In this document: in pieces, positions 16,395 through 23,967 of the stretch
Numbering within the stretch: the stretch's first letter is position 1
Layout: every line of letters begins with the position of its first letter
DNA from: Kangiella sediminilitoris
Lineage (GTDB): Bacteria; Pseudomonadota; Gammaproteobacteria; Enterobacterales; Kangiellaceae
Direction of reading: 5' to 3'
Assembly (NCBI RefSeq): GCF_001708405.1
Contig: NZ_CP012418.1
Location: 248,001-312,000 of the forward strand
Length of the DNA stretch: 64,000 bases
The notes under the pieces: model-generated
The model's input: the letters and a program-made list of their open reading frames with translations, nothing else
Databases searched by the model: none
Told to the model about the DNA's origin: nothing
Translations under genes and position numbers: made by a program

Positions 16395-17162
16395 GTGCGA
16401 AAAACACTGATAGCTGGAAACTGGAAAATGCATGGCAGCCAAGATTCCATTAAGGACTTACTTAACGGTATTACAGGCCAGCTGGATGCATCAATGGACA
16501 GCGATATTTTAGTGTGTCCTCCTACTATTTATATAGATAGCGTTAAAAAACAGCTGGAGAATGCTCCCGTTGCAGTTGGTGCACAGAATGTATCTGAGCA
16601 GGACCAGGGCGCTTTCACTGGCGAGGTCAGTGGTGACATGCTCAGGGATTTTGGCGTGGAATATGTGCTTGTTGGCCATTCCGAACGCCGCAGTCTATTT
16701 AATGAGTCTGACGAAATCGTTGCTAAGAAGTTCGCGAAGGCTCTAGAGCATGGGATAAAACCTGTTCTTTGTATCGGCGAAACACTTGAACAGCGAGAAA
16801 ATGGCACCACTATGGCTGTTATAAAGCAGCAGATTGATGCGGTGATTGATTTTTATGGTGATCGCGACGTTGCTTTAGATAAGATTAGCCAGGCCGTTAT
16901 AGCTTATGAACCGGTTTGGGCAATTGGTACTGGAATGACAGCAACGCCAGAGCAGGCGCAGGACGTTCATTCGTCTATTCGCAACTATCTGGCTGAAACA
17001 AGTCAGGATACAGCTGACAAAATACAAATTTTATATGGTGGTAGCATGAAGGCGTCAAACGCTGAACAGCTACTGGCTCAACGAGATATCGATGGCGGAC
17101 TGATTGGGGGAGCTTCCCTGAAAGCCGACGAGTTTATCGCAATTTGCAAAAAAGCAGGTTAA
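16395..17162 (+). CDS. tpiA: Triosephosphate isomerase
   Basis: The 255-residue TIM-barrel enzyme interconverts dihydroxyacetone phosphate and glyceraldehyde-3-phosphate. Catalytic residues are K11 (AGNWKMHG), H95 (VGHSERR) and E172 (AYEPVWAIGTG), and the phosphate loop GGSMKASN and GGASL are present. GTG is the start, preceded by GAGGTGG at 16385-16391. It is 4 bases before secG, and tpiA-secG-tRNA-Leu is a common gammaproteobacterial order. Confidence 0.98.
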   Translation: MRKTLIAGNWKMHGSQDSIKDLLNGITGQLDASMDSDILVCPPTIYIDSVKKQLENAPVAVGAQNVSEQDQGAFTGEVSGDMLRDFGVEYVLVGHSERRSLFNESDEIVAKKFAKALEHGIKPVLCIGETLEQRENGTTMAVIKQQIDAVIDFYGDRDVALDKISQAVIAYEPVWAIGTGMTATPEQAQDVHSSIRNYLAETSQDTADKIQILYGGSMKASNAEQLLAQRDIDGGLIGGASLKADEFIAICKKAG

Positions 17163-17166
17163 GACT

Positions 17167-17682
17167 ATGGAATTATTTTTAATGATTAGCTTGTTAGTAG
17201 TCGCATTACTACTGATTGGTGTTATCTTAATCCAACAAGGTAAAGGTGCTGAAATGGGCGCTTCATTTGGTGCTGGTGCTTCAAATACCTTGTTTGGTGC
17301 TCCGGGCTCGGGTAACTTTTTGACTAAAAGTACAACCGTGCTTGCGATTGTATTTTTTGCTATTGCTTTGGCGATTGGTGCTCTGAACTCGCATGAGACA
17401 GCAAATAAGTCGAGTTTACTGGATGATGTTGATCAGACTGAACAAGGCGCAGCGGTAGAGTCTTCAGAAATCCCAGCGGAAACAAACGAAGCTATTAGCA
17501 CTGAAATTCCAGCCGAAGCCAATGATGAAATTAGCGCGGAAATCCCTACAGAAGAACAAGCTTCTGATGAAATTGCTGAGTCCATTGATGCTGCCGCTGA
17601 AGCAGCAGCTTCTGCCGATGAAGTAAAGGATGACGCAGAAGAGGGCGCCAAAGACGAAGATAAAGGCGACGACAAGCAGTAA
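17167..17682 (+). CDS. secG: Protein translocase subunit SecG with a long acidic tail
   Basis: The first 75 or so residues are a normal SecG: two membrane helices around the conserved cytoplasmic loop (ILIQQGKGAEMGASFGAGASNTLFG). SecG assists SecYE during export. The protein is 171 residues, about 60 more than E. coli SecG. The extra C-terminus is rich in Glu, Asp and Ala with an approximate repeat (EIPAETNEAIS, EIPAEANDEIS, EIPTEEQASDEI). The tail should lie on one face of the membrane as an acidic unstructured segment. It is cotranscribed with tpiA and probably with tRNA-Leu. Confidence 0.95.
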   Translation: MELFLMISLLVVALLLIGVILIQQGKGAEMGASFGAGASNTLFGAPGSGNFLTKSTTVLAIVFFAIALAIGALNSHETANKSSLLDDVDQTEQGAAVESSEIPAETNEAISTEIPAEANDEISAEIPTEEQASDEIAESIDAAAEAAASADEVKDDAEEGAKDEDKGDDKQ

Positions 17683-17693
17683 ATTCTGAAAAA

Positions 17694-17779
17694 GCTCAGG
17701 TGGTGGAATTGGTAGACACGCTATCTTGAGGGGGTAGTGGCCGTAGGCCGTGCGGGTTCAAGTCCCGCTCTGAGCACCA
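17694..17779 (+). tRNA. tRNA-Leu (anticodon GAG)
   Basis: The 86-base class II tRNA has acceptor arms GCTCAGG and TCTGAGC, the anticodon loop TTGAGGG with GAG at 17728-17730, a long variable arm and the T-loop GGTTCAAGTCC. The 3' CCA is encoded. It decodes CUC and CUU. It follows secG by 11 bases, a conserved location, and is followed by a terminator. Confidence 0.97.
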
Positions 17780-17784
17780 AACAT

Positions 17785-17820
17785 AAAACGACTGTTGCGT
17801 AAGTAGCGGTCGTTTTTTTT
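17785..17820 (+). terminator. Terminator after tRNA-Leu
   Basis: Arms AAAACGACTG and CGGTCGTTTT pair (one G-T) around a loop and run into a stretch of T ending at 17820. It ends the tpiA-secG-tRNA unit. Confidence 0.88.
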
Positions 17821-18209
17821 TGCTTGATTCCAGCAGGGGTAAGGGTTATTGGAAGAACATTAATGGATAGGCTTTAGAAAGGTCGTTGAAAGTTTAGAAT
17901 TTGGCCCCGTAAACAGGAATATAGTCTACTCCTTTTAACCTCTGGTGTTTTAATATAAAAAGATAAAAATGTTATAAAATCTGACAAAAATTTGTTTAAT
18001 AGACGTTGATTTCTTTTACATAATTTATGAAAAAAATCCGAATTTTTTATTTATTATTGCTTGTTTGGATAGTGAGTCCCAACTCAAGAAGAATCAGGTG
18101 GTGGGCCTAGAGAATCGGGTATTTTCTTTTGCTAGAATATAAATCTCCAGTATGTTGCGCGTCAACGAGGGTCGCGCTTGTGTTTGGTTTTTTGCAAGAG
18201 GATTTGCTC
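17821..18209. other. AT-rich non-coding gap
   Basis: About 390 bases without a credible gene. The part at 17940-18060 is very AT-rich with several A and T tracts. The only signal I can support is the extended -10 element at 18130-18138, ahead of a small membrane-protein gene. Confidence 0.5.
18130..18138 (+). promoter_or_regulatory. Extended -10 promoter for the first small membrane protein
   Basis: TGCTAGAAT is a TGn-extended -10 about 72 bases before the ATG at 18210. No clear -35 is visible, as is common for extended -10 promoters. The AT-rich stretch upstream could act as an UP element. Confidence 0.4.
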
Positions 18210-18335
18210 ATGAAACAGACTATTACCCCGAAAAAAGTGCATCAGCATGATGCGGAAGAAATCTTTCTCGATACCTGTAAAGTGATTGTGGCTTTACTGC
18301 TCATAGGAGCGCTTGGATTTTCATTCTTCTTATAA
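18210..18335 (+). CDS. Small single-helix membrane protein A (41 residues), unrecognised family
   Basis: The ATG is preceded by AAGAGGA (18196-18202) at good spacing. The product has a short charged N-terminus (MKQTITPKKVHQHDAEE) and then FLDTCK followed by one hydrophobic helix of about 19 residues ending at the stop. Its C-terminal half matches the 43-residue protein encoded at 20702-20833: D-A, F, D, C, V, V-A-L, L-I-G are shared in register. The two genes flank an Omp85-type gene on the same strand. An upstream TTG at 18129 would add 27 unlikely residues. I do not recognise the family. A tail-anchored inner-membrane role is inferred only. Confidence 0.7.
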   Translation: MKQTITPKKVHQHDAEEIFLDTCKVIVALLLIGALGFSFFL

Positions 18336-18345
18336 ATACATATGA

Positions 18346-18397
18346 GGTATCGCAGCTTACCGTTGGGGAGTTGTGATACCGAATATGTCCTATTTTT
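18346..18397 (+). terminator. Hairpin after small protein A, possible terminator
   Basis: GGTATCGCAGCT (18346-18357) and AGTTGTGATACC (18369-18380) pair over 12 positions with two G-T pairs. A run of six T follows only after 12 further bases, so termination is possible but not certain. Confidence 0.4.
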
Positions 18398-18515
18398 TGA
18401 ATCATCTTGGTGGGATGAGGGGGGATCCTGCATTTCAGCTTACAGTTCAATCAGAACATAAGTAGTTAAAAACCAGAATTCTTACTTCTCTAATTTTCGA
18501 ACGATCCTTTTCCTA

Positions 18516-18674
18516 AGGCAGCTGAAAAATTAACACTAAAATTCACATATAGGCTGCCTGAACCTTCAGGTCTGGAAGTCGCATATCTCAAAACATCCAT
18601 AATAGCTCATGCCAGGCAGGTTTAGGTGCAATGAGTGGTATTGAGTGTAGAAACCTTTCGAAGGCTCCACTCAA
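18516..18674. other. Structured intergenic segment, possible non-coding RNA
   Basis: Within the 576-base gap before the Omp85-type gene, several self-complementary elements are clustered. AGGCAGC (18516-18522) pairs with GCTGCCT (18553-18559). CCTGA and TCAGG (18557-18570) form a tight hairpin. TTGAGTG (18641-18647) pairs with CACTCAA (18668-18674), enclosing CCTT-TCG-AAGG (18654-18664). No open reading frame, known riboswitch or tRNA is seen. This could be a leader RNA or small RNA; the evidence is pattern only. Confidence 0.35.
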
Positions 18675-18911
18675 GACTACTTAAAAGTGAGTCAGATACT
18701 CAGGAGCTATTTCTAATAGAAGGTAGTTTAGTTTTGAAGGTAAGTTATGTAATTGACCACACCTAATCATTAGCATTAAATTAGTATTTGGTGGGGCTCC
18801 TAGTGCTGCTTAGGCAATTTGATGTATTTGCTGGATTGTGTGACAGTTACTAGGGTAAATATTACGTATCACCTATGATGGGCAAGATTAACAATATAAG
18901 ACAATAACTAT

Positions 18912-20501
18912 ATGCGAAAATTATTCGGCATAGTGGTATTACTGGTACTGCTGGCTGCTAATATAGCTGCTGGGGCAGAAAATAATAATCAACATACTAT
19001 AAAAAGTATTCAGATAGTCACTCATCCTATCTTTAGCGAGGATGAGCGAACCAGCTGGCTTTATGAAACTGCTGATGATCTGCATATTGATACCAAGCCC
19101 TACGTTATTGAGCGTTTACTTCCATTTAAAGTCGGTGACACAGTTAATGAGCGCTTGCTGATCGAAGCTGGCCGTATTTTGCGTGGTCAGGGTTTTTTGC
19201 GGGAAGCGAGAGTAAGCTGGAAGCAAGCTGATGGCGGTATTGATGTTTTGGTAGAAACATGGGAAACCTGGACTTTAATCCCCACCGTGGATATAAGCCG
19301 AGAGGGCGGTGCTAATGAATATGCTTATGGTATTGAGGATGACAACCTGCTTGGGCATGGCATTCGTGCAACACTGGAGTATTTTAAGGAAGAAGAGCGC
19401 TCCGGCTACACTTTTATTATGGCATCGGATGTATCAACCAATCACCACATTCAGAGTGCTGTAGCATTATCGAATAACTCAGATGGAGAGCAGTACTCCT
19501 TCTCGCTAATAAGGCCTTTTTATACCTTAGAAGATACCTGGGCAGCTGGTGCTAACTTCAATACCCAGCGTTTACAGGACACTATTTACAGTAATGATGA
19601 AACAGTCAATGTCTTCGAGCAGGAAATTGATGAATTCGGATTTTCTACAGGCCTGTCACAGGGAATCGTAAATAATGATGTTTGGAGATTCCTGGTCGGG
19701 TATAACCAGGAAGAGCACCGTTTTGACCCTCTGCTTGATACCAGTGTTTTACCTGATGATCGTGGCTTAGAATACTTTTGGGCTGGTCTTGAGTATCAGC
19801 AGGATAACTTCATAAAAACGAAGAACCTATACCTTATAGATAGAACCGAGGACATCCAGCTCGGCTGGTATCACAATTTAAAACTTGGTTATAACACTTC
19901 AGAACTGGGCAAGGAGGAAGGACTTGTTGGCTACTGGAGGGGGCGTTACGTGAATAAGCCTGATGACAGCCATCTGGTACATGCTTTCGCCAGTTTGAGC
20001 TCTGAGGGTGAAAGCATTGATCGTTCAGGGAATCCATTGGGCGTAACTGCTTATTACGGTATAGGTACCGAATACTTCTATCATTCCAGTAAAGAACATA
20101 TCTGGTATACCCGCCTTCATTATCGCGCAGCGGATAACCCTTATGTTGATCAGCCAATTTCCCTGGGTGGTGAATCTGGGCTGAGGGGGTATCCTTTGGA
20201 GTATCTGCATGGCGAGGAAAGTTACCTTCTGAATGTGGAGAGACGTTTTTATCCGGGCAACACCTGGTTTAAGTTATTAAACGTTGGGTATGCCGCATTT
20301 GTTGATGCGGGTAGAGTAAGTGGTTACACCCCCTACACTAACCAAGAAACAGGGACGCTTGCAAGCGCTGGAGTTGGCTTAAGGCTTTTTATTGCTCGTT
20401 CCAGCGGACGTAAGGTGATCAATATAGATTTTGCCTCTCCGGTGAATTCAGAGTTTTTAAGTGGCGTTGAAGTCAGCATCACACTAAAGGCTAGTTTTTA
20501 A
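18912..20501 (+). CDS. Omp85-superfamily outer-membrane protein with one POTRA domain
   Basis: The 529-residue protein has a signal peptide (LFGIVVLLVLLAANIAAGA) and one POTRA-like domain at about residues 30-115, with the typical GDTVNERLLIEAGRILRGQGFL helix region. A barrel of about 410 residues follows, carrying the superfamily lid motif (GGESGLRGYPLEYL) and ending in a phenylalanine (LKASF). BamA has five POTRA domains and TamA three, so this is neither. It may insert or translocate outer-membrane cargo, or export lipids; the substrate is not inferable. No good ribosome-binding site precedes the ATG. Two small related membrane proteins flank it. Confidence 0.88.
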   Translation: MRKLFGIVVLLVLLAANIAAGAENNNQHTIKSIQIVTHPIFSEDERTSWLYETADDLHIDTKPYVIERLLPFKVGDTVNERLLIEAGRILRGQGFLREARVSWKQADGGIDVLVETWETWTLIPTVDISREGGANEYAYGIEDDNLLGHGIRATLEYFKEEERSGYTFIMASDVSTNHHIQSAVALSNNSDGEQYSFSLIRPFYTLEDTWAAGANFNTQRLQDTIYSNDETVNVFEQEIDEFGFSTGLSQGIVNNDVWRFLVGYNQEEHRFDPLLDTSVLPDDRGLEYFWAGLEYQQDNFIKTKNLYLIDRTEDIQLGWYHNLKLGYNTSELGKEEGLVGYWRGRYVNKPDDSHLVHAFASLSSEGESIDRSGNPLGVTAYYGIGTEYFYHSSKEHIWYTRLHYRAADNPYVDQPISLGGESGLRGYPLEYLHGEESYLLNVERRFYPGNTWFKLLNVGYAAFVDAGRVSGYTPYTNQETGTLASAGVGLRLFIARSSGRKVINIDFASPVNSEFLSGVEVSITLKASF

Positions 20502-20701
20502 TAAATATATCGCGTAAAAAACTATGTTAGGTATGAAATATTTAGACATATATAGTATCTAACTCACTGTAATTATGACTGGATTATTTGCAAAGCAATA
20601 GTTGTTTACATTTATAAACACACATTTCCTCAAAAATAGTATTACATAGACTTATAGCTTAACGCAGTAAGTGGTTTGAATACTTAACGGAGGATATGAC
20701 C

Positions 20702-20833
20702 ATGAAAAATACAACTAAAGTTCCAGCACACTTTGACGATGATGCATATGATGCTCAGGACTTATTTTTTGACGCCTGTACGGTAGTAGTAGCCTTGGTG
20801 TTAATCGGAATGGTGTTATTTGCAATAGTCTAG
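20702..20833 (+). CDS. Small single-helix membrane protein B (43 residues), paralogue of A
   Basis: GGAGG at 20689-20693 lies 8 bases before the ATG, an excellent ribosome-binding site. The product has an acidic N-terminus (HFDDDAYDAQD) and then LFFDAC and a hydrophobic stretch (TVVVALVLIGMVLFAIV) that ends at the stop. The last 26 residues align without gaps to the protein encoded at 18210-18335, sharing D-A, F, D, C, V, V-A-L, L-I-G. The stop overlaps the stop of the convergent glycosyltransferase by two bases. Family and function are unknown. Conservation of the Asp-x-Cys before the helix suggests a functional site. Confidence 0.75.
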   Translation: MKNTTKVPAHFDDDAYDAQDLFFDACTVVVALVLIGMVLFAIV

Positions 20834-21921
20834 TTAGCTTGTTCATTCAGCGGCTGTTCTAGACCATAAAAGTCAATAGCCCTGGTAATAAGCTCTTTGA
20901 CTTCCTGCACACTTATATTCTGCATGAGATCGCTCCCCTTTAAGCGATACCCCCAAGGAATCATGTCAGAGGAGCAACCTAGCTCCTCTGACGCTTTTCG
21001 TGTGTAGGCATCAGCGATAAAACGTTGATAAAGATATGGGCCCGTACGCTTTGGGTTGCTGTGAGCATAAAGACCAATAACGGGGGTGCTTTGAGTCACA
21101 GCCATATGGGCTGGCCCTGAATCAGGAGCGATTACAAGCTGAGCCTGCTGAAGAGTGAGTAATAATTGTTTAAGGTTTGTTTTGCCTGCCAAATTTATAG
21201 TAACAGCTTTAGTTTCCTGAGCGATGCTGCGACAGATCGTTTTTTCAGACTCTGAAGGGCCACCTGTCAGGAGCACGGTATAACCTAATTGGTGACAATA
21301 ATCTGCAATGGCTGCATAGCGCTCAGTTAACCAGTTACGTTCGGCTTTACTGGCCGCGGGGGAAATAACAACAAAAGGTTCTTTCGGAAGGTAGTTTGCT
21401 GCCCAGGCTTTAGCCTCATGTGGGATGGGTATTCGCCAGGAGGGTAGCTCATCTTCAACACCAATGGCTCTTACAAAATCCCTGAAACCATCCAGGACAT
21501 GAAATCCACGACTATCTTGAATATGCTCTCCTACAAACAAAGAGTGAAGTTCTTTGCTGCGTTCTTTGGCAAAGCCAATTTTTCGATCAGCAGGAATAAA
21601 AAAAGCAGCCAGGTTGGCCCGAAAGGCCAGCTGCATATGAAGAAGGATATCGAAGTGACGCCCCTTCATGGAGTGCTGAAGTTCACGGTAAGCCTTCCAT
21701 CCCTTACTTTTATCAAAGACCACGAAATCTACGCCGGGAAGGTCACCGATAAGTTTCTCTTCAACTTTTCCAATTACCCAGGTGATGGTTGCCTCAGGAT
21801 AAGCTCTCTGAAGCGCTTGAACTGAGGATACTGCGTGGCATACATCTCCGATCGCTGAGAGGCGCAGGATGCAGATTGATTTTGGTGTAGCAATGTTTGT
21901 GGAGGTCAAAGCGGCGCTCAA
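20830..21921 (-). CDS. Glycosyltransferase family 9 (heptosyltransferase-like)
   Basis: The 363-residue GT-B enzyme opens with ILRLSAIGDVCHAVSSVQAL. It has the acceptor-side segment HMQLAFRANLAAFF, a VVISPAASKAERNW linker and the ADP-sugar-binding APDSGPAHMAV with NPKRTGPY after it. These are GT9 features of LPS core heptosyltransferases. It is divergent from the Kdo kinase gene, 69 bases away, consistent with inner-core LPS assembly. Whether it adds heptose I, heptose II or another sugar is not decidable here. Confidence 0.9.
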   Translation of the reverse strand: MSAALTSTNIATPKSICILRLSAIGDVCHAVSSVQALQRAYPEATITWVIGKVEEKLIGDLPGVDFVVFDKSKGWKAYRELQHSMKGRHFDILLHMQLAFRANLAAFFIPADRKIGFAKERSKELHSLFVGEHIQDSRGFHVLDGFRDFVRAIGVEDELPSWRIPIPHEAKAWAANYLPKEPFVVISPAASKAERNWLTERYAAIADYCHQLGYTVLLTGGPSESEKTICRSIAQETKAVTINLAGKTNLKQLLLTLQQAQLVIAPDSGPAHMAVTQSTPVIGLYAHSNPKRTGPYLYQRFIADAYTRKASEELGCSSDMIPWGYRLKGSDLMQNISVQEVKELITRAIDFYGLEQPLNEQAN

Positions 21922-21990
21922 ATGTTATGGATAGTTCAGATTTTAATGTATAGTATGACATAAACCAACCGCGCAATTAGTTGAGCTTGA

Positions 21991-22710
21991 GTGAAAATCC
22001 AACAAATTGATAAAAACCGCTTTATGGTGGCTGTCAAAAAATACCGAGAGAAGGTAACAAAGGATTGGTTTGACCCTGAACAACTCAAGAAAAATGATGA
22101 AATTATTGGTCAGTCAGTAGGACGAAATACGACTTATTTCTTCGAGAAAGACGGTAAACGTTTTGTATTAAGACGTTACTACCGCGGTGGTTTGATCGCT
22201 AAATGGGTTGAAGATAGTTATCTGTTTCTTGGCTTAAGAAAAACCCGGGCTTTCCGTGAGATGAAACTACTGAAAGAGATGCGTAAACGTAATCTCCCTG
22301 TGCCAGAGCCAGTGGCGCTAATGGTCAGTAGAAAAGGACTAACTTACCGCGCATCTATCATCATTCGATTGATCGGTAATTCTAGAGATCTGTTTCACAT
22401 CCTGCGTGAGCGAGCATTAACTGAAAAAGAATGGTTAGCGGTAGGTAGGCTCATTAGGAATTTTCACAATAAAGGCGTCTACCATGCTGATTTAAATATC
22501 CATAATATATTGCTGAGCCGGGACGGTGAAATGTGGCTAATTGACTTTGATCGAGGTCGTTTTGTTGAACCGAATGCCTCTAACCTGGAGACTAATCTTG
22601 GACGCCTAAAGCGTTCATTGGAAAAAGAGAGTAAAAAATGGCAAGAATTTCATTGGCGACAGCCTGACTGGGAGTTGTTATTGAAAGGCTACCATGATGA
22701 ACATCAGTAG
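21991..22710 (+). CDS. kdkA: 3-deoxy-D-manno-octulosonic acid (Kdo) kinase
   Basis: The 239-residue protein of the KdkA/WaaP lipopolysaccharide kinase family has a kinase-like fold. VLRRYYRGG carries the ATP-binding region, the catalytic loop is YHADLNIHNILL (H165, D167, N172), and LIDFDRGR (D185) is the metal-binding segment. It phosphorylates Kdo of the LPS inner core on the cytoplasmic side. The start is GTG at 21991. It is divergent from a GT9 transferase. Its catalytic region is also the closest match in this window to the C-terminal domain of the acyltransferase at 30543-32141. Confidence 0.93.
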   Translation: MKIQQIDKNRFMVAVKKYREKVTKDWFDPEQLKKNDEIIGQSVGRNTTYFFEKDGKRFVLRRYYRGGLIAKWVEDSYLFLGLRKTRAFREMKLLKEMRKRNLPVPEPVALMVSRKGLTYRASIIIRLIGNSRDLFHILRERALTEKEWLAVGRLIRNFHNKGVYHADLNIHNILLSRDGEMWLIDFDRGRFVEPNASNLETNLGRLKRSLEKESKKWQEFHWRQPDWELLLKGYHDEHQ

Positions 22711-22718
22711 CCTTTAAG

Positions 22719-23726
22719 CTATACGGAGAACAGAGCTGCCATCATAGCGAAAACGGTAATAAAAGCGAAAACGATCAGGTAAACGATGCTGAAAACAATA
22801 AATTTAAGACTCGTAGGCCAGAAGCCTTGACCGTAGAAGCGCTTCATGGAAAGAAACAGATAGATGACCACCCATATCAGCAATATCGATCCCAGCGGGA
22901 CATAACTCAGCCAGCTAAACACCTTTTGTAATTGATACCATCCGAGATACAGTAGGATTATAGCGAACATGTAGCTGTGAGAATGTAGCAGTAGAACCAG
23001 GTGCTCTACGTACAAATGGCGCTTCATGAAATATAGTAGCTGTAAAATGACTGCCAAAAGTGGCATGGTAAAGAGAAAAGTCTGAGGCAGGGCTTCTATC
23101 GCGCTTTGCCCGAGAGATAGCCAGAAGTTGATTTTGGCTTTAGTCTGCTTTTCTTCAGGCAGATACTGGATATCATCGTAGGCATCGCAGACAGCGGCTG
23201 TTTTTTTATCAAAATAGTTATCAAGCCACTGGGGCCAAAGTTGGATTATATCCTGGGTATGATCGCATCCACCCCCAAAGATAACTGTTGTGTCATTAAT
23301 CGCGACATGGTCGACTGCTTCTAACTGTTCTGGAGTAAGATTTTTTTCTTTTTGTATTGCCTCAATTTCCTGTTGAACCTCCTTATCATCTAAAGCAGTT
23401 TTTACGTCAATTTCCATTTCAGTCAGGCTGAAACCGCCGAAGCTGGTTAATAAAAAGAATATAATCGAGAGGAATATATAGAGCCGTATCGGGGTGACGT
23501 AGTGGTTGTTGTGATGAGAGTTTCTAAAGTAATCAAGGCTTAAAGCGGCGGGTTTGGCAAGTGCTGCCGCCGTTTTATAAGCTTTTGAGTCATAGCCAAA
23601 CCAGTTCTCAACAAATTCCCACAGCAATTCTTTAACGCTGCGGTGCGGGCGAAAAGTTTTCTGCCCACATTGAGAGCAATATTTTTTGGGTTTGGGTGCA
23701 ACTTCCTTAGTTGTTGTTTCGCTCAT
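22719..23726 (-). CDS. DUF3667-type membrane protein with N-terminal Cys pair
   Basis: The 335-residue protein starts with a short zinc-ribbon-like motif (YCSQCGQKTF). The family segment RSVKELLWEFVENWFGYDSKAY follows, then several membrane helices (first at about residues 80-97, four or more near the C-terminus). A soluble insert of about 100 residues (DKEVQQEIEAIQKEKNLT onwards, with GGGCDHTQD) lies between the first helix and the rest. Function is unknown. It overlaps the upstream DUF2909 gene by 20 bases and so is probably translated with it. Confidence 0.8.
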   Translation of the reverse strand: MSETTTKEVAPKPKKYCSQCGQKTFRPHRSVKELLWEFVENWFGYDSKAYKTAAALAKPAALSLDYFRNSHHNNHYVTPIRLYIFLSIIFFLLTSFGGFSLTEMEIDVKTALDDKEVQQEIEAIQKEKNLTPEQLEAVDHVAINDTTVIFGGGCDHTQDIIQLWPQWLDNYFDKKTAAVCDAYDDIQYLPEEKQTKAKINFWLSLGQSAIEALPQTFLFTMPLLAVILQLLYFMKRHLYVEHLVLLLHSHSYMFAIILLYLGWYQLQKVFSWLSYVPLGSILLIWVVIYLFLSMKRFYGQGFWPTSLKFIVFSIVYLIVFAFITVFAMMAALFSV

Positions 23727-23967
23727 CAGTGACAGCTTCCTGTGCTGGATCTACGGGTAAAACGCCTTCTCTCATATTGATGACGCCGAAGTAATCAAGC
23801 AGTATGACGATAATAAACAAAGCAAGACTGAGGCCAATCCGCCACATTAGTGACCTTAATAACTGTTTACTATTCTCCTCTCCCCCCTTAGTCAGAAAGA
23901 ATAAACCTCGAAAAAGGCTGAATAATATAGCCAGCATCAATATAATAACGACAACTTTAACCCACAT
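23707..23967 (-). CDS. DUF2909 twin-helix membrane protein
   Basis: The 86-residue protein has two membrane helices (about residues 4-26 and 45-62) joined by a charged loop (TKGGEENSKQLLRSLMWR). This fits the DUF2909 family, which is usually found between cytochrome c oxidase subunit III and SURF1. Here it is divergent from SURF1 and no oxidase subunit is present. It probably belongs to oxidase assembly; this is inference from context. Confidence 0.8.
   Translation of the reverse strand: MWVKVVVIILMLAILFSLFRGLFFLTKGGEENSKQLLRSLMWRIGLSLALFIIVILLDYFGVINMREGVLPVDPAQEAVTDERNNN

Follow-up and report, generated by a model that had tools for sequence, protein, structure and literature searches.

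Several small proteins span the bacterial inner membrane once, among them AcrZ, CydX, KdpF, MgrB, and MgtS, and oxidases possess one-helix small subunits. Phospholamban, a regulator of SERCA in eukaryotes, has a cytoplasmic N-terminal part, and the second transmembrane segment (TM2) of signal peptidase I (LepB) is an N-in helix. YohP is described as another small single-span inner-membrane protein. Within the Omp85 superfamily, PlpD is named in the literature as a single-POTRA protein (PMC4104836). The window analyzed in this study, a stretch of 64,000 nucleotides from Kangiella sediminilitoris, contains two very short genes, mini-gene A and mini-gene B, on either side of an Omp85-superfamily gene.

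Two Mini-Genes of a Kangiella-Wide Family

Mini-gene A (18210..18335, + strand) encodes 41 amino acids with a hydrophilic N-terminal part, a D-x-C motif, and a C-terminal helix, and is the paralog linked to secG and a tRNA gene. Mini-gene B (20702..20833, + strand) encodes 43 amino acids and is the copy linked to the Omp85 gene and a heptosyltransferase-like gene; it is carried by all 18 near-complete genomes of the genus. These coordinates agree with a sequence-only reading of the window, as does the presence of two ribosome-binding sites, GAGG for mini-gene A and GGAGG for mini-gene B, each of which ends 8 nt upstream of the ATG. A second in-frame ATG, at 20696, makes a less likely start of mini-gene B because GGAGG lies only 2 nt away. 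The C-terminal 26 residues of the two proteins align without gaps (MAFFT alignment) and are identical at 13 positions, which include the DA, F, D-x-C, V, VAL, and LIG residues listed in the earlier reading and a further F. This similarity is well beyond chance. Within the window's own genome, the two proteins are each other's sole recognizable relatives (two matches at E ≤ 10), and a further search added a single chance-level match (E = 0.12) within a larger protein.

The family comprises 27 genes, with products of 38–57 amino acids, in 18 out of 18 near-complete Kangiella genomes, so homologs are not confined to the genome of the window; 18 out of 20 genomes of the genus gave a match, and the two without one are 55% and 86% complete. 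Judged from their substitution pattern, both mini-genes are coding genes under purifying selection, with a dN/dS of 0.04–0.19 in the 17 out of 24 pairs for which it was computable (several with dS > 1) and saturated dS in the other seven. The products consist of a hydrophilic N-terminal part of 11–28 residues, a conserved ten-residue motif (D-A-E-x-x-F-L-D-x-C), and a single hydrophobic segment that runs to the C-terminus. Met1, the Asp of the D-A-E motif, and the Cys are invariant (27/27). The proposed conservation of the pre-helix Asp-x-Cys holds fully for the Cys and less strictly for the acidic position, which is Asp in 23 members and Asn in the remaining four. The suggestion of a small inner-membrane-type protein family stands: it is real, Kangiella-wide, and characterized by a single predicted helix and the conserved pre-helix motif.

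Searches beyond Kangiella

At the family level, 26 out of 40 genomes matched at E ≤ 1, of which 18 belong to the genus and eight gave weak matches (best E = 0.027). At the order level, 40 out of 295 genomes matched at E ≤ 0.1 and 17 of these belong to the genus; the best of the other matches were LepB (E = 1.9e-4) and a protein read as formate dehydrogenase (E = 8.6e-4). At the class level, three out of 369 genomes matched at E ≤ 0.005, the window's own genome and two weak hits (E = 5.9e-4 and 0.003). Pattern searches yielded five hits and no relatives in viral contigs and 43 hits and no relatives in a first scan of genome contigs, and the 301-base stretch 20600–20900 was without a match in plasmids. 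A second scan of 84,980 species genomes gave 38 pattern hits and 10 relatives (nine Kangiella, one Kangiellaceae), with a sensitivity limited to the recovery of 10 of the 18 genus genomes that carry the family. In these searches no credible homolog appeared beyond Kangiella, and the family is so far genus-only. As the earlier reading had supposed, no described family matched above a curated cut-off; PHROGs, which has no cut-offs, gave weak hits only. The published list of Kangiella signature proteins used an e-value threshold of 1e-30 (PMC6000758). The 41-amino-acid mini-protein matches itself at E = 3.8e-23 and is unlikely to reach that threshold, so that the family is probably not among the four signature proteins, as far as the list is described there.

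Genomic Neighborhood of the Mini-Genes

The Omp85-superfamily gene lies between the two mini-genes on the same strand (18912..20501, +), as had been noted, and encodes 529 amino acids. According to a predicted model and structure alignment, the protein consists of one POTRA-like unit and a β-barrel, and the barrel aligns with TamA, BamA, and Sam50 chains. A GT9-family (heptosyltransferase-like) gene (20830..21921, − strand), for which the NCBIfam heptosyltransferase models score under their cut-offs, is convergent with mini-gene B and overlaps its end by 4 bases. Mini-gene B sits between the Omp85 gene and the heptosyltransferase-like gene in 18 out of 18 genomes. An eight-gene run from the heptosyltransferase gene to sco is also kept at this locus (17 out of 18 genomes; the contig of genome G017 ends inside kdkA), and the adjacency of mini-gene B and Omp85 is therefore weak evidence for a tie between them.

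The usual address of mini-gene A is marked by secG (17167..17682, +; the SecG match was obtained on the G017 ortholog only), followed by a tRNA gene (17694..17776, +; Rfam tRNA, read as tRNA-Leu) and then mini-gene A. In four related genomes approximately 8–14 kb of sequence, ilv genes included, separates mini-gene A from the Omp85 gene, and the two are close in the window because its genome is without this ilv-containing block. The genes upstream of Omp85 vary by clade: cox genes precede it in G009 and G013, the ilv block does so in the clade of the window, and G005 has other genes there. The proposed synteny with Omp85 thus holds for mini-gene B and does not extend to mini-gene A, which belongs beside secG and the tRNA gene and is missing from the close relatives G017 and G019, apparently through two losses; both genomes retain the Omp85 gene. 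The case calls for caution, as adjacency in a single genome can mislead: one "flanking" mini-gene is near Omp85 only through a missing gene block.

A Promoter-Like Block Upstream of Mini-Gene B

A conserved promoter-like block was predicted from sequence upstream of mini-gene B (20595..20647, + strand) and is found 5' of the Omp85-linked copy in 18 out of 18 genomes. Its order, a geometry that was read after the fact, is a G..A..AGTT-like element, TTACAT (20606–20611), N3, a CTGACA-like element, 21 nt, and a TNNNAT hexamer, which in the window is again TTACAT (20642–20647). TTACAT occurs in nine out of 10 representatives, compared with a best 6-mer in at most seven out of 10 in 200 mononucleotide-shuffled sets, a control that overstates the signal because the representatives are related. 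The conservation of the block suggests that mini-gene B is probably transcribed separately from Omp85. Among nine second-copy genes, T[TA]ACAT was never found at the position of the block and occurs within 300 bases of two, where it precedes the start by 182 and 194 bases.

The published site of CpxR is given as GTAAA-N4-8-GTAAA (PMC5063474). The reverse strand of the block reads approximately GT-x-x-x-N5-GTAAx, which is reminiscent of this site; the first half fits poorly and a CpxR site is not claimed. A looser CpxR-like motif is present at two sites in the genome, this block and a position 5' of a gene read as sppA, a count that is uninformative because a backward-read control likewise yields one hit.

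Predicted Topology and Proposed Role

All members of the family (27/27) end in an uncharged hydrophobic segment of 16–18 residues, and none carries a charged residue past the position directly after the Cys, which is K or R in 16 members. The AlphaFold2 model of mini-protein B is a single helix (residues 13–42) with a block-mean pLDDT of 61 for residues 11–20 and 89–96 from residue 21 on; a helix is expected for nearly any such sequence and the model is uninformative on a partner. The mini-proteins are thus predicted to have one transmembrane helix in fewer than 60 amino acids, and the predicted topology places almost no residue in the periplasm. A positive-inside argument for this orientation is weak because the N-terminal part is net acidic in most members.

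The explanation preferred here, with a probability of about 0.45, is that these are Kangiella-specific, tail-anchored small proteins of the inner membrane that may each bind and tune a larger membrane protein. The N-terminal part would stay cytoplasmic, with the Asp-x-Cys face at the cytoplasmic membrane surface, and the helix and juxtamembrane D-x-C segment would pack against a larger protein of the inner membrane and thereby tune or stabilize it. The mini-proteins themselves would have no enzymatic activity. Control of mini-gene B probably lies with an activator bound to the upstream block, and mini-gene A (18210) may be a dispensable, diverged paralog. The reading as a tuner of a membrane partner is generic and not specific to these data. 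The invariant Cys, the constant address, the conserved promoter-like block, and the existence of natural one-copy and two-copy genomes make the function testable by simple deletion.

Alternative Roles

An inner-membrane accessory component that contacts the Omp85 protein through its pre-helix Asp-x-Cys appears unlikely. Mini-gene B does lie directly 3' of Omp85 in every genome while the genes 5' of Omp85 vary, but the heptosyltransferase-like gene and seven more are linked just as constantly, the conserved promoter-like block stands between the two genes, and mini-gene A is only secondarily close. None of 15 Omp85 loci inspected outside the genus has a mini-like gene, so that constant co-occurrence across lineages fails despite the 18 out of 18 within it. 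The Omp85 protein is also an unlikely partner because almost no mini-protein residue would reach the periplasm; if the orientation is N-in, there is no periplasmic part to meet the POTRA unit. A functional tie of both copies, as originally proposed, is not supported, and a working partnership is a weaker proposition than it had seemed, adjacency alone being no proof.

An accessory subunit or assembly factor of an aa3-type cytochrome c oxidase is quite unlikely. Genes read as coxB, coxA, ctaG, and cox3 lie just 5' of Omp85 in G009 and G013, both of which were inspected (the cox3 family match was confirmed for G009), and surf1-ctaA-ctaB-sco-like genes, labeled by reading, lie downstream. However, Omp85 always stands in between, and coxB-cox3 were not seen upstream in the window's clade or in G005 (of the G001/G003/G005/G010 clade), where the mini-gene stays with Omp85. 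Among oxidase small-subunit families the sole match was CoxIIa (E = 0.11, one out of 27 members).

The size, the one helix, and the paralogous intergenic copies would also suit a hydrophobic toxin from a type I toxin–antitoxin system, present as two diverged copies, which is very unlikely given the purifying selection on a conserved acidic pre-helix stretch and one copy at a fixed address in all 18 genomes. Apart from the tRNA, a search of Rfam over 17000–22000 gave two hits at chance level that fell short of the gathering scores, and no antitoxin; promoter-like sites were not commoner than in shuffled sequences (9 vs. 8.1, sd 3.0).

Derivation from, or mimicry of, LepB TM2, with an action on Sec/LepB, is highly improbable. 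The TM2 of LepB in genome G087 was the top non-genus profile match in the order, its E value being per genome; with 295 genomes searched and a soluble putative formate dehydrogenase nearly equal, this hit is close to noise. Several LepB proteins of the genus have I-D-I-C-R-S before TM2, and hhalign scored the genome's own LepB segment (24.8) and a LepB profile (23.0) above all 81 hydrophobic segments taken from the window as controls, the best of which was SecG (20.0). However, the probabilities were only 49–65% and the SecG control reached 61%, LepB was chosen for the test because of the resemblance, and its Cys is replaced by Ser in seven of the 16 genus LepB segments (16 of 20 loci), in contrast to the invariant Cys of the mini-proteins. 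The likeness is not significant once search size is allowed for.

An independently evolved counterpart of phospholamban/sarcolipin, in which a tail-anchored (N/D)-x-C helix would bind and regulate a SERCA-class P-type ATPase such as the window's genome appears to encode (class read from motifs), can be given next to no credence.

Comparison with Known Small Proteins

The phospholamban matches, none of them significant and not from independent searches, comprise the best PDB profile match (E = 0.029), the lowest E value in Pfam (0.047, three out of 27 members), and a match in NCBIfam (0.0072), where KdpF had a lower E value (0.0016). The family cut-off (PF04272, TIGR01294) was not reached (best 16.0 vs. 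72.85 bits), and the model matched two out of 10 real members (four out of 27 in a full-set search), no shuffled control (0/10), and neither member in the window. The C-terminal helix of phospholamban opens with an LF-x-N/D-x-C run similar to that of the mini-proteins; homology with this animal protein is implausible. Some LepB members likewise have D-x-C-R/S ahead of TM2 where the mini-proteins have D-x-C, but in LepB a periplasmic protease domain follows, whereas the mini-proteins end with the helix, and the catalytic domain (PF10502) is absent from them. Both resemblances are below threshold and serve as leads only. The KdpF match (two out of 27 members, one of which scores 11.7 vs. a cut-off of 53 bits) was put down to hydrophobic-helix similarity and an identity as KdpF was rejected; no kdp gene was recognized by eye near the mini-gene loci. 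The likeness to TamA and BamA of the Omp85 superfamily, one POTRA-like unit and a barrel, is that of the neighboring protein, to which the mini-proteins show no relation.

The mini-proteins share no family with AcrZ, CydX, KdpF, MgrB, MgtS, or YohP above any cut-off. Their resemblance to these small single-span proteins of the inner membrane is one of kind, in a length of fewer than 60 amino acids, one predicted helix, and no catalytic domain, and they add a conserved family to the under-annotated mini-proteins of bacterial membranes. Unlike the AcrZ and CydX type, they have a helix that forms the very C-terminus and is immediately preceded by an invariant Cys, and they have been seen in one genus only.

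Two mini-genes and their family

In the window, mini-gene A (18210-18335, plus strand, 41 codons plus stop) and mini-gene B (20702-20833, plus strand, 43 codons plus stop), each with a ribosome-binding site, lie on either side of an Omp85 gene (18912-20501). Their products share 13 identities over the last 26 residues in a gap-free alignment, which confirms the paralogous pair described in the sequence-only reading. An alternative in-frame ATG of mini-gene B is found at 20696, and 20702 is the better start because it is eight bases from a GGAGG that ends two bases 5' of the ATG at 20696. The host genome is a single contig of 2.50 Mb.

That the pair belongs to a wider family, as proposed from the sequence alone, was borne out by protein searches that detected the family in 18 of 20 genus genomes, namely in all 18 with a completeness of 90% or more and a contamination of 5% or less. 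Completeness is 55% and 86% in the two negative genomes, and an Omp85 of the same type was not seen there either. The 27 genes read from the 18 genomes (two copies in nine, one in nine) carry a signature of purifying selection, with dN/dS values of 0.04-0.19 in 17 out of 24 chosen pairs (Nei-Gojobori, some with dS above 1) and saturated dS in the remaining seven. Three residues are invariant in all 27 members, namely Met1, the D-A-E Asp and the D-x-C Cys; the first position of D-x-C is Asp in 23 members and Asn in four. A scan of 84,980 species genomes returned ten relatives, nine titled Kangiella (including K. aquimarina, K. shandongensis, K. taiwanensis, and K. spongicola) and one Kangiellaceae. 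Overall, the family is real and its genus is Kangiella. No Pfam or NCBIfam family matched the mini-proteins above its own cut-off, and PHROGs gave weak matches only. No description of the family was found among the papers listed for Kangiella, small membrane proteins, phospholamban in bacteria, and single-POTRA Omp85, nor in the parts consulted of PMC6000758, PMC4104836, PMC5063474, and PMC12719787.

Gene order and history of the copies

In all 18 genomes, one mini-gene has the Omp85 gene on one side, on its own strand, and a convergent GT9 heptosyltransferase-like gene on the other. Four genomes (G001, G003, G005, and G010) carry a second copy between the Omp85-linked copy and the heptosyltransferase gene, and a winged-helix regulator gene (family match run for G001) separates the two mini-genes. 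This gene (L070:9232-9882, L067:9386-10045, by match also in loci L068 and L069) resembles the DNA-binding part of CadC/PhoB and is a candidate regulator of the mini-gene family.

The second copy is placed after secG in five genomes (the window genome, G002, G004, G006, and G018). Its distance to Omp85 is about 8-9 kb in G002, G004, and G018 and about 14 kb in G006, and the intervening stretch in these four carries genes read as ilvC, ilvB, ilvE, and ilvD plus a citramalate-synthase-like gene. Mini-gene A is only 576 bases from Omp85 because this ilv block is missing in the window genome (window 17777-18910 versus loci L061, L063, L065, and L059/L060). The flanking of Omp85 by mini-genes noted in the sequence-only reading is constant for the downstream copy alone (18/18), since the secG-linked copy lies about 8-14 kb away in four relatives and is missing from others. 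Kangiella species vary in Val/Ile synthesis according to PMC6000758, a difference compatible with ilv-type genes having been gained or lost. In the Omp85 tree, two genomes without a second copy (G017 and G019) group near G002; parsimony on this tree suggests that the second copy was lost twice, assuming orthology of the secG-linked copies. The deep order of the copies is not settled by the mini-protein tree, which has 43 columns.

A metallophosphatase gene adjoins Omp85 within the ilv-containing stretch in G002, G004, and G006 and none was seen in G018. This LpxH-like gene (L061:9377-10237; also in L063, L060, L072, and L074) is divergent from Omp85 and has the same arrangement in G017 and G019 as in the former three genomes; LpxH models matched the G004 protein below their cut-offs. 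In G013 (L075:3465-8045) and G009 (L071:11359-15629), the Omp85-mini pair is immediately preceded by genes interpreted as coxB-coxA-ctaG-cox3 and has surf1-ctaA-ctaB-sco-like genes downstream. In the window, a two-helix ORF of 86 aa (23707-23967, minus strand), which may be DUF2909-like, adjoins surf1.

A conserved block upstream of the Omp85-linked copy

A promoter-like block (window 20595-20647 for mini-gene B) is found with the same geometry within 160 bases 5' of the Omp85-linked mini-gene in all 18 genomes. It consists of a G..A..AGTT-like element, TTACAT (TAACAT in G011), three bases, a CTGACA-like element, 21 bases, and a final hexamer that reads TNNNAT in 17 out of 18 genomes (exactly TCTAAT in six; TCTTAA in G009). 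TTACAT is common to nine of ten representatives picked to limit relatedness, compared with at most 7/10 for the best 6-mer in 200 mononucleotide-shuffled sets, a control that overstates the case as the geometry was read post hoc and the representatives are still related. Upstream of second copies, a TTACAT-type hexamer occurs in two of nine cases, at other positions. A sigma-70 scan of 17600-21000 performed no better than on shuffled sequences. Given the conserved block, the Omp85-linked mini-gene is probably transcribed separately from a putative promoter of its own, perhaps through an activator.

Predicted topology and a possible mechanism

The model of mini-protein B is a single helix (residues 13-42, confident from about residue 21). 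Beyond the position directly after the Cys, which is K or R in 16 of the 27 members, no member has a charged residue. The simplest topology has a cytoplasmic N-terminus and a helix that ends at the C-terminus; we can only infer this orientation, because the N-terminal part is mostly net acidic. Such a topology would leave nearly nothing for contact with an outer-membrane partner, and a functional link to Omp85, the invariable neighbor of one mini-gene, seems improbable. The reading we favor, at a probability of about 45%, is that the mini-protein would be tail-anchored in the inner membrane, where its helix and D-x-C start would bind a larger inner-membrane protein and thereby tune or stabilise it, the mini-gene being switched on from its own putative promoter.

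Resemblance to known proteins

Phospholamban was the best PDB profile match of the family (E 0.029) and gave the lowest E in Pfam (0.047; 3/27 members). Within NCBIfam it matched four of the 27 members (E 0.0072 and 0.0093 for two of them), with a lower value for KdpF (0.0016; 2/27 members). None of ten segment-wise shuffles had any hit, compared with five of ten genuine members at E<=1; the matches lie far below the cut-offs, and neither mini-protein A nor mini-protein B has one. In an order-level search, the best match from outside the genus was LepB transmembrane segment 2 (E 1.9e-4), which outscores 81 control hydrophobic segments; a protein read as formate dehydrogenase reached E 8.6e-4 in the same search and a SecG control gave a similar hhalign probability to LepB. 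Both the phospholamban and the LepB resemblances may serve as leads. The Cys of the LepB segment is replaced by Ser in 7 out of 16 segments.
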